DNA of 64,000 bases, taken from positions 1-64,000 of the forward strand of contig NZ_ML660062.1 of the NCBI RefSeq assembly GCF_007004665.1. The letters run 5' to 3'. Within the stretch, counting starts at the first letter, position 1; each line of letters starts with the position of its first letter. Source of the stretch: Denitrobaculum tricleocarpae. GTDB lineage: Bacteria; Pseudomonadota; Alphaproteobacteria; Kiloniellales; Kiloniellaceae. Positions 56,549-59,292 of the stretch are shown here, piece after piece. The notes beneath the pieces are model-generated. The model had not been told where the DNA came from and did not search any database. It worked only from the letters and a program-made list of their open reading frames with translations. Position numbers and translations under genes: made by a program.

Positions 56549-56860
56549 GACCTAATTCCCGACGATCCGGCGCGCGTTTGCTCCTCAAAGCCCGGCGCAG
56601 GCTCCTCAACCCATTTACCCCAACAGTCTCCTGCCCAGCCCTCTCCACGCGCACCCAACGCGCGGCTCTCACCGCTGATGTCACCGGGTTAAGACGAAGG
56701 CTTCGACAGAAGAAACACACAGTGCGGGCCTGTCTAACACAGGCCGGCGCCAGCGTAAAAGCAATCGCGGCAAAGATTCTGTAACAATTCGCGAAAAAAT
56801 GGATCCTGAAAATTCCTCCCCCGTCTCCGGGAGAGTGATGGCCTTGCGTGGAACCTGCAT

Positions 56861-57065
56861 CCGGCCCTCGCCCCCACCCGGCCAGGCCGCTTGGTTTGAC
56901 CAGGTTTCGACGCGTGTCGAAACCGGCACCGGCCCTCACCCCCACCCGGCCACATGTGTGGTTTGGTTAGGTTTCGACATATGTCGAAACCGGCACCGGC
57001 CCGCACCCCCACCCGGCCACCCATCGGAATGATCATGTGGGTGGCCGGGTGGGGGTGCGGGCCGG
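56861..57065. repeat. Palindromic repeat locus 1: units A, B and hairpin unit C
   Basis: Units A (56861-56928) and B (56929-56995) are 67-68 bp. Each begins ccggccctc, has a short CCAC/GTGG-like stem, then ggtttcgac-N4-gtcgaaacc. Unit C (56996-57065) shares the ccggccc(g)cacccccacccgg beginning but is a huge hairpin: 28-bp perfect arms (56996-57023 and 57038-57065) around a 14-nt loop. No open frame runs through it with gene features. It resembles REP/BIME or MITE-like elements. Confidence 0.85.
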
Positions 57066-57172
57066 AACCGCATCTAGACCAACCTAACAAGGACCGGCAC
57101 AAAAACCCAAGCTTGACGCAAGGCCGCGGGCGGCTGATGATCGGAGCCGTTCCTAGGGGGGCCTTTTATCAG

Positions 57173-57264
57173 CCTGCGGGTTGATATTGACGGGCTGAGA
57201 TACTGGGCAGGCGGCAACGCCCCCAGTGACCCTTCGAACCTGATCCGGGTAATGCCGGCGCAGG
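57173..57264 (+). ncRNA. TPP riboswitch (THI element)
   Basis: The conserved core is present: GGGCTGAGAT (about 57196-57205), then CCCTTCGAACCTGATC and GGTAATGCCGGCGCAGG. The closing stem P1 is cctgcg (57173-57178) with cgcagg (57259-57264). Thiamine pyrophosphate binding should lower expression of the downstream thiY and probably tenA. The mode (transcriptional or translational) is unclear; no obvious T-tract terminator follows. Confidence 0.93.
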
Positions 57265-57411
57265 GAAGGAAACCGGTTCTCACCACGAGAGAACACTCCG
57301 CAAAGACCCTCCGCTACTCACTCCCGGATCTCCTGGTGACTTTTCGAATGGAAAAGCACTGATCGTCTGAGTCTCGCACGCGAGGCGCATAACGGATTAA
57401 GGAGGTCCGCC

Positions 57412-58398
57412 ATGTTGTTCCGTTTTTCATCCAAGCCGCTCTTGCGCGCTTTCCGCCCGACCCTCGCCGCCCTGGCGCTGGCGATGGTCTCAAGCCTTTC
57501 CATCACCCCGGCCCAGGCCGCCGAGAAGACCACGATCCTGCTGGACTGGTTCCTGAACCCGGACCACGGGCCGCTGGTGGTGGCGCAGCAGCGTGGTTAC
57601 TTCGCCGAGGAAGGCCTGGAGGTCGAGCTGATCGAGCCCGCCGATCCCAACGATCCGCCCAAGCTGGTCGCCGCCGGCCGGGGGGATCTGGCCATTTCCT
57701 ACCAGCCGCAGCTGCATCTGCAGATCGAGGCCGGCCTGCCCCTGACGCGCATCGGCACCCTGGTCGCCACACCGCTGAACACCCTGCTGGTGCTGGACGA
57801 CGGCCCGATCAAATCCATCGCGGACCTGAAGGGCAAGAAGGTAGGCTTTTCCGTCGGCGGTTTCGAGGACGTGATGATGACCGCCATGCTGGCGCGCCAC
57901 GGCCTGACCACCGACGACATCGAACTGATCAACGTGAACTTCTCGCTCAGCCCGGCGATCCTCTCCGGCCAGGTTGACGCGGTGATCGGCGCCTACCGCA
58001 ACTTCGAGCTCAACCAGATGGACATCGAAGGCCACAAGGGCCGGGCCTTCTACGTCGAGGAGGAGGGTGTCGCCACCTACGACGAACTGATCATGGTCGC
58101 CAACAACGCCAAGCTCGACGACCCGCGCTTCCCGAAAGTCCTGCGCGCCATGGAGCGGGCCGTGACCTTCATGATCAACCACCCGGACGAAGCCTGGAAC
58201 GACTTCATCAGCTACCGCAAGGAACTGGACGACGAGCTGAACCGCCGCGCCTGGCGCGACACGCTGCCGCGTTTTGCATTGCGCCCCGCCGCCCTGGACA
58301 AGGGCCGTTACGAGGCTTTCGCCGCGTTCCTGCAGGAGCACAAGATGATCGGCAAGCTGGTCCCCGTGGAGAGCTACGCGGTCGAGTTGGAGAGGTAG
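57412..58398 (+). CDS. thiY: Thiamine-precursor-binding protein of an ABC transporter (ThiY-like)
   Basis: 328 residues. A signal peptide ends near residue 36 (AQAA). The mature protein is an NMT1/THI5-like binding protein: LLDWFLNPDHGPLVVAQQRG, LVAAGRGDLAISYQ and GKKVGFSVGGFEDVMM. ThiY binds formylaminopyrimidine or HMP-type precursors for salvage. Directly controlled by the TPP riboswitch, with a near-perfect AAGGAGGT ribosome site six bases before the ATG. The usual partners thiX (permease) and thiZ (ATPase) are not next to it here. Confidence 0.88.
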   Translation: MLFRFSSKPLLRAFRPTLAALALAMVSSLSITPAQAAEKTTILLDWFLNPDHGPLVVAQQRGYFAEEGLEVELIEPADPNDPPKLVAAGRGDLAISYQPQLHLQIEAGLPLTRIGTLVATPLNTLLVLDDGPIKSIADLKGKKVGFSVGGFEDVMMTAMLARHGLTTDDIELINVNFSLSPAILSGQVDAVIGAYRNFELNQMDIEGHKGRAFYVEEEGVATYDELIMVANNAKLDDPRFPKVLRAMERAVTFMINHPDEAWNDFISYRKELDDELNRRAWRDTLPRFALRPAALDKGRYEAFAAFLQEHKMIGKLVPVESYAVELER

Positions 58399-58428
58399 GC
58401 CCAGTTTTGGCTGACGCCTAGTTCGGTG

Positions 58429-58566
58429 CCGGCCCGCACCCCCTCCCGGCCACTTGGCGTGGTTTGATTAGGTTTCGACTGACGCCGAAACCGGCACCAG
58501 CCCGCTCCCCCTCCCAACCACCCAATGCGATTATCCTGTGGGTGGTTGGGAGGGGGAGCGGGCCGG
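58429..58566. repeat. Palindromic repeat locus 2: unit D and hairpin unit E
   Basis: Unit D (58429-58496, 68 bp) matches units A and B of locus 1: ccggcccgc start, CCAC/GTGG stem, ggtttcg-N8-cgaaacc. Unit E (58497-58566) matches hairpin unit C: 28-nt arms (58497-58524 and 58539-58566) with one mismatch and a 14-nt loop. Several arm bases differ from unit C, yet each change is matched in the partner arm. It lies between thiY and tenA. Confidence 0.85.
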
Positions 58567-58596
58567 CACCGAAACTCCATTCAAGAGTGAGAACCT

Positions 58597-59292
58597 ATGA
58601 GCTCGTCAAACAACGAGAATGAATTAACCACCACCCGCTTTACCGACCGCCTCCGCGACGAATCAGAACCCTTCTGGACCCAGGCCACCACCCACCGCTT
58701 CACCCGGCAGCTCGCGGACGGGACCCTGCCGGACGAAGTTTTCATCCGCTATCTGATCCAGGACTATCACTACGTGGACTGTCTGGCGCAGGCGGTCGGC
58801 TTCGCGGTCGCGCTGGCCCCCGACATGGCCACCCGCCGCCCTCTGGCCGGTTTCCTCTCGGTCCTGACCAACGCCGAAAACGATTTCTTCCTGAAGTCCT
58901 TCGCGCGCCTGGGTGTGGATGAGGCCACCTGGCGCAACACCCCGCCCTCACCTGTTACGCAAGCCATCTCGGAGGCCATCGTCGGCGGCGCCAGCGGCCA
59001 CGCTGGATCAGGCCAATACCCCGAAGCCATGACCGTCCTGCTCTGCTCCGAATGGGTCTACCAGGCCTGGGCCGAGCCGGTCGCCGACGCCCAGCCGCCC
59101 CAGCCACAATACCGGGAATGGATCGAACTGCATGCGACGGCCGAGTTCATCGGCTTCGTGGAGTGGCTACGGGAAGAGACCGACCGGGCCTGCGAGGGAT
59201 TGGATGCAGAGCGGCAGGAGGCTCTGGTCGCGCTCTTCCGGAAGGTGACGGAGCTGGAAGCGGCGTTTTTTGAGGATGCTTTTGGAAGTTGA
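58597..59292 (+). CDS. tenA: TenA-family protein (aminopyrimidine aminohydrolase/thiaminase II-like)
   Basis: 231 residues, all helical. TenA enzymes hydrolyse aminopyrimidines from degraded thiamine for salvage. Asp in LIQDYHYVD (near 56) and Cys near 149 (LLCSEWVYQAW) fit the TenA_C active-site positions, and a Glu near the end (ELEAAFFED) fits the third. The Cys context is unusual, so TenA_E-type chemistry cannot be excluded. It follows thiY after 198 bp with a repeat element between. Likely under the same riboswitch. Confidence 0.88.
   Translation: MSSSNNENELTTTRFTDRLRDESEPFWTQATTHRFTRQLADGTLPDEVFIRYLIQDYHYVDCLAQAVGFAVALAPDMATRRPLAGFLSVLTNAENDFFLKSFARLGVDEATWRNTPPSPVTQAISEAIVGGASGHAGSGQYPEAMTVLLCSEWVYQAWAEPVADAQPPQPQYREWIELHATAEFIGFVEWLREETDRACEGLDAERQEALVALFRKVTELEAAFFEDAFGS

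Follow-up and report, generated by a model that had tools for sequence, protein, structure and literature searches.

What are the palindromic repeats that flank thiY in Denitrobaculum tricleocarpae, and why do the two arms of each hairpin differ from copy to copy in a matched way? The question arises from a 64-kb window (the whole 64,000-nucleotide stretch of DNA analysed here), for which a preliminary description had proposed a new REP/BIME-like or MITE-like family whose structure is maintained either by selection on RNA or DNA shape or by arm-to-arm conversion. It is probable, in our opinion, that a non-autonomous MITE family of Alphaproteobacteria has these hairpins as its core, with movement by an IS630-type transposase and arms renewed by template switching. 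The family resembles known IS630-type MITEs and is distinguished by its conserved hairpin core.

Repeat units and hairpins around thiY

Five copies of a C-rich arm were located by repeat search (56848-56884, 56916-56952, 56983-57019, 58416-58452, and 58484-58520), which agrees with the earlier division into units A-B-C before thiY and D-E after it. Successive copies are separated by 68, 67, 1433, and 68 bp, i.e., the period inside both groups is 67–68 bp. The A-C array is located upstream of a TPP riboswitch and thiY, and the D-E array between thiY and the next open reading frame, which we take to be tenA (Table 1). Units A, B, and D are half units formed by the first arm, a spacer, and a small hairpin; this small hairpin (GGTTTCGAC..GTCGAAACC or similar) is found 5' of B, C, and E. 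Units C and E form almost perfect inverted repeats with arms of 33 nt (94 and 91% complementary, respectively) and loops of 14 nt, and their RNA folds (-82.4 kcal/mol, z about -10.7, for C; -72.1 kcal/mol, z about -10.5, for E) are far outside those of shuffled sequences, none of 200 being as good in either case. Hairpins with 14-nt loops had been claimed for both units, as had arm differences between C and E that are matched in the partner arm, and these paired differences are indeed present. The loops had also been described as alike, which is correct only in part, TCGGAATGATCATG (unit C) and ATGCGATTATCCTG (unit E) being two loop types of the family. In the genus of the analysed genome, tandem half units (first arm, spacer, and small hairpin) precede the full hairpins (56861-57023 and 58429-58524). 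An Rfam scan of the window gave the TPP riboswitch as the sole match at or above the gathering score; the hairpins themselves matched only other models, mostly of miRNA, all below threshold.

Table 1. Features of the two repeat arrays and their surroundings (positions in the window).
Feature	Positions	Strand	Evidence
Half unit A, C-rich arm without partner arm	56861..56884	+	Repeat search
Small hairpin GGTTTCGAC..GTCGAAACC before B	56903..56924	+	Inverted repeats
Half unit B, C-rich arm 67-68 bp past A	56929..56953	+	Direct repeats
Small hairpin 5' of unit C, after GGTTTGGTTA	56970..56991	+	Inverted repeat
Unit C, left arm	56991..57023	+	Inverted repeat; covariance model R1, 100.5 bits
Unit C, loop TCGGAATGATCATG	57024..57037	+	Hairpin alignment
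Unit C, right arm	57038..57070	+	Inverted repeat
TPP riboswitch after unit C and before thiY; adjacent to the element but no part of it	57145..57283	+	Rfam RF00059, 69.3 bits
thiY open reading frame, 328 aa, between the two arrays; name from the preliminary description	57412..58398	+	
Half unit D, C-rich arm	58429..58453	+	Repeat search
Small hairpin 5' of unit E, after GGTTTGATTA	58471..58492	+	Inverted repeat
Unit E, left arm	58492..58524	+	Inverted repeat; covariance model R1, 99.2 bits
Unit E, loop ATGCGATTATCCTG	58525..58538	+	Hairpin alignment
Unit E, right arm, before the downstream open reading frame 58597-59292	58539..58571	+	Inverted repeat

A dispersed family and its insertion sites

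The covariance model R1, built from nine full hairpins of the same genome, matched nine hairpin sites in it, each of them on both strands because the sites are palindromes, and a DNA search found further copies on contigs C4, C8, C9, C11, C12, and C17. Among relatives, matches at E≤1e-3 were obtained in 31 of 98 genomes with a patchy distribution; for example, in genus g2 the hairpin is present in five of eight genomes and absent from three, and none of the g4 genomes listed in the covariance model search has it. The exact core pattern was found in at least 119 stretches of named genomes, and all 80 of the 80 matches listed are alphaproteobacterial by record title, including Sphingomonas, Qipengyuania, Erythrobacter, Novosphingobium, Minwuia, Kordiimonadales, and Kiloniellales. 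The core arm is common to these lineages and the outer parts are lineage-specific, those of the Sphingomonas and Qipengyuania copies being different. The hairpins around thiY thus belong to a dispersed alphaproteobacterial family spanning several orders, as shown by a covariance model scan, the kind of check suggested in the preliminary description, together with the search for the core pattern. A local chance duplication is excluded by the nine hairpins of the genome, the 31 carriers among relatives, and the named taxa of several orders. Spread by phages or plasmids was also set aside, the core being found in only three viral contigs and in two of 72,556 plasmid records, with low coverage. 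The contigs from the viral collection that hold the exact core pattern are L351, L352, and L353. No description of the hairpin family was found in the open-access literature, searched by core letters and by title or abstract start.

The whole element consists of a (C/T)TAG terminal inverted repeat, the small hairpin, the large GC-rich hairpin (stem of about 26–33 bp and loop of 12–18 nt), and the other terminal repeat, and measures about 130 bp in the clearest genome. In G046, 15 of the 20 copies examined are 128 bp long from TA to TA with both ends present, and several of the other five are near contig ends. The copies of this genome are nearly identical (mean core identity, 0.986) and read CTAGAGCGTTTTCC, small hairpin, large hairpin, and GGAAAACGCTCTAG, with CTAGAGCGTTTTCC as the terminal inverted repeat at both ends and unrelated sequence outside CTAG on either side. 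End sites CTAGAGCGTTTTC with up to one mismatch number 118 and 117 in G046, versus 5 and 3 for the reversed control. In g2 the inverted repeats are weaker than in G046, one end reading CTAGAGCGTTTTCGAC and the opposite end a looser CTAGACTCTTTC. The two sides of the copies in the genus studied here read GGTTTGATTAG and CTAGATCAAACC, unlike CTAGAGC. A second MITE-like family (L111; L023:2370-2510), starting with TAGAGCAGAT and about 150 bp long, has many copies in g2 genomes and is present in G010, a genome without the hairpin family; it has the same TAGAGC start and once adjoins a hairpin element at a common TAG.

Two clean empty sites were found in relatives, and at both of them the empty genome has a single (C/T)TAG where the occupied one has a copy on each side of the element (CTAG at one locus, TTAG at the other). 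At one locus, G008 carries CCCTAG, the element, and CCTAGCTG (L124) where G014 has CCCTAGCTC (L327); at the other, G020 (L165) is occupied and G012 reads GGATTAGTCGCGC (L355). They represent one of four aligned sites in a first set and one of five aligned out of six in a second, whose sixth is a remnant; the remaining sites compared are too diverged or contain hairpin remnants. In L384 (compared with L163) most of the hairpin is gone, leaving the two outer parts of the element and the final segment of the right arm, and L362 and L363 retain the right part of the element. These three are scars of palindrome deletion at orthologous sites. Being dispersed, with inverted ends, a fixed length in G046, and empty sites, the repeats do form a MITE-like family, one of the two possibilities raised at the outset. 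In G003, the region downstream of thiY looks duplicated (L174, about 2034 and 5359), the flanks of the two hairpins being 98.7 and 91.7% identical.

The elements of relatives coincide with the ends of genes. In six relatives, 132 element sides were considered (98 in g2 and 34 in G046), and a confident coding frame enters the element at 92 of them; in 50 of these 92 entering genes the stop codon is exactly at the element tip. Stops within 60 nt number 79, and the 50 at tip positions compare with 10.5 expected from a uniform spread, an excess whose p-value is optimistic because the tip window of eight positions was chosen after the pile-up had been seen. TAG is used in 41 of the 50 tip stops versus 11 of the 42 other stops, partly because of the tip sequence itself. 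Among 97 elements with both flanks, a gene ends on both sides in 46, on one side in 40, and on none in 11. In the genus of D. tricleocarpae there is no pile-up of stops at the tips, the offsets are spread, and the copies of the window likewise show no coincidence. A stop bias arising because CTAG lies mostly at stops was not supported in the window, where only 3 of 26 CTAG are at called stops, so target choice alone is not obviously the cause. Our proposal is that tips coincide with stop codons because TAG tips preserve stops after insertion. Each tip reads TAG into the element, and insertion into a stop codon would leave the gene a stop; where two genes converge on one CTAG, insertion would keep both stops.

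Candidate mobilising enzymes

The Correia elements of Neisseria, RUP of pneumococcus, and Nezha of cyanobacteria are IS630-type MITEs. The elements described here resemble them in being about 100–150 bp long and gene-less, in their terminal inverted repeats and TA target, and in having ends common to an IS630-family transposon. Unlike them, they contain a long hairpin core common to alphaproteobacterial orders with outer ends that vary by lineage, their tips lie at stop codons, and their loops undergo inversion. RIME and other rhizobial mosaic elements are alphaproteobacterial, palindromic, mosaic, and intergenic, and the present family is like them by description only.

The ends provide the link with IS630. 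YTAGAGC is present at both ends, 1.05–1.1 kb apart, in 8 of 31 distinct IS630 loci examined (G002, G016, G023, G025 twice, G034, G058, and G060), of which the G002 locus, from the same genus as the analysed genome, measures 1,095 bp and the G016 locus is from g2. CTAGAGCG ends occur in some insertion sequences of the IS630 family from the same order, and one IS630 end, CTAGAGCGTTTTCC, is identical to the G046 element in 14 of 14 positions. The three transposases tested all exceed the NCBIfam IS630 cut-off. With p-values that ignore phylogeny, an IS630 match was obtained in 27 of 31 hairpin genomes versus 33 of 67 others (p = 0.0003), and within the order in 25 of 29 versus 18 of 32 (p = 0.013). 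According to the part of the source that was available (PMC2170065), insertion of IS630-type elements takes place at TA, which is duplicated. A 1991 paper by Tenzen and Ohtsubo reportedly deals, by its title, with a CTAG preference of IS630. Because the element ends match IS630-family insertion sequences of the same order, a transposase of this type is the likely mobiliser; judging from these ends and the empty sites, it would most likely have cut and pasted the mini-element into the TA of CTAG or TTAG.

The IS630 link holds for the ends of relatives only, the copies of the genus studied here being members of the family by core and layout; no insertion sequence with the ends of this genus was found. 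Remnants of the IS630 family exist in the analysed genome (G000:C1:355252-355569 and G000:C27:8535-8894), one of them with an internal stop. An IS630 transposase as the present-day mobiliser in every carrier was discarded, as G003, G012, G020, and G049 are hairpin genomes without an IS630 match. Moreover, one mobiliser does not fit all copies because those of Sphingomonas and Qipengyuania have other outer parts. In G046, the resident IS630 (C74) does not have YTAGAGC at both ends, and facing exact CTAGAGCGTTTTC pairs 0.8–2.5 kb apart are absent among the matches listed.

The other possibility put forward initially was a REP/BIME family, which would owe its spread to a tyrosine transposase of the RAYT (TnpA-REP) type. 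The repeats are many-copy intergenic palindromes in tandem arrangements, as are RAYT-associated REP/BIMEs in the part of PMC2817692 available, and the tandem half units recall BIMEs. One Y1_Tnp gene exists in the genome, and Y1_Tnp was matched in 16 of 31 hairpin genomes versus 23 of 67 others (p = 0.12, ignoring phylogeny). However, there is no association within the order (14 of 29 versus 15 of 32, p = 1.0), and the only Y1_Tnp gene of the genome (locus L023) has none of these hairpins within 1.5 kb on either side. The gene was sought in vain in 15 of the 31 hairpin genomes (including G008, G012, G016, G018, and G046), which refutes a RAYT-REP system for those carriers. Unlike RAYT-linked REPs, the family does not have the GTRG head as a constant part of the element flanks examined; its core is about 80 nt, with long stems (about 26–33 bp) and large loops, and the inverted tips with a TA target fit a DDE transposase. 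A RAYT origin is hence highly improbable.

Matched arms, loop inversion, and their meaning

In the nine hairpins of the genome, 17 cells are changed on both sides, exceeding all 500 shuffles. A larger set of 107 hairpins from 13 genomes, a part of the matches and mostly the best scoring, was also examined; it excludes duplicate loci (L053, L056, L057, L061, L062, L082, L091, L093, and L095) and L089, L172, L178, and L179, in which no hairpin reached 22 pairs out of 26. The 24 innermost pairs are Watson-Crick in 2,541 of 2,568 cells, and paired departures number 84 versus 6.9 expected with independent arms. The hairpins had been chosen by the same threshold of 22 out of 26, which inflates the share of paired cells, and the orthologues among them are not independent. 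Among the 27 unpaired cells, 15 are A-C and 5 are G-U. Many of the paired changes are transversions, and at one position T-A is replaced by A-T in 15 of the 107 hairpins with no intermediate. Between orthologous hairpins (34 pairs at 14 loci, pairs within a locus not being independent), both arms differ at 40 positions and a single arm at 17. Six of the 14 loci have an inverted loop, and the loops are otherwise about 93–100% identical.

Paired changes are poor evidence for selection on RNA shape because A-C cells outnumber G-U cells by 15 to 5, and the loop inversions point to a DNA process. Of the earlier proposal that the structure is maintained, what stands is that the arms are kept matched and that arm-to-arm conversion is an option; the part on RNA shape found little support in this ratio. 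According to the available part of PMC8604942, inverted repeats that undergo template switching end up with homogenised arms and inverted spacers, and the paired changes fit such switching during replication. Our hairpins resemble those homogenised by template switching in their matched arms and inverted spacers, and differ from those in the available parts of the two sources (PMC8604942, PMC8794818) in occurring within a dispersed bacterial mobile family, at many parallel loci. After insertion, template switching during replication would copy one arm onto the other, giving a paired change in one step, and would sometimes invert the loop; deletions would remove much of the hairpin, leaving scars.

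A different origin of the paired changes, compatible with the MITE reading, would be gene conversion of whole cassettes between dispersed copies and not template switching within a hairpin. Some arm and loop types do recur together at different loci, e.g., the AACC arm is combined with loop ATGCGATTATCCTG in unit E, at L018, and at L012 (G003), and palindromic arms would allow entry in either orientation, so that the loop could invert. Nevertheless, paralogues within a genome of the same genus (identity, 0.87–0.89) are hardly more alike than non-orthologues between genomes (0.87), orthologues reaching 0.93, which makes concerted evolution within the genome a weak candidate. In addition, at a locus whose gene is presumably livF both arms differ, the loop and its orientation being unchanged, and an intermediate altered in one arm exists in G001. 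Cassette conversion is therefore a possible, if doubtful, explanation. Still less probable, and indeed unlikely, is selection for a structure, in RNA or DNA, at the 3' ends of genes (a terminator, an mRNA stabiliser, or a protein site), compensatory substitutions being retained for the sake of pairing and mobility being old and secondary. The very stable folds, the many elements at which genes end on both sides (46 of 97) or one, and the conservation of the core arms between orthologues of the genus (93% identity versus 52–60% just outside and 39–49% further out) would suit such a role, but the unpaired cells show no wobble bias, many paired changes are transversions, loops are inverted and hairpins deleted at orthologous sites, no U-tract follows the stems inspected, and no Rfam hairpin family matched above threshold.

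Within the preferred reading of a MITE family renewed by template switching, an effect of the hairpins on the transcripts of thiY or of the downstream gene may be envisaged from their position, and they may act at the 3' ends of genes. A more speculative idea, which we regard as rather unlikely, is that the core constitutes a separate module, one palindrome carried across alphaproteobacterial orders in mini-transposons with lineage-specific ends, landing on stop codons and conserved for a host or transposition factor. If this were true, gene ends would be turned into hairpin-marked, possibly bidirectional, 3' ends, and the core would be kept through recognition by the factor, with template switching renewing the arms.

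A location at stop codons would explain in a simple way how mini-transposons spread at low cost through genomes densely packed with genes. Paired changes in hairpin arms are commonly taken as proof of a functional RNA, and the many orthologous and paralogous hairpins of this family allow that interpretation to be tested against template switching, for which loop inversion speaks. For studies of the loss and inversion of palindromes in bacteria, the family is in addition a source of many natural replicates.
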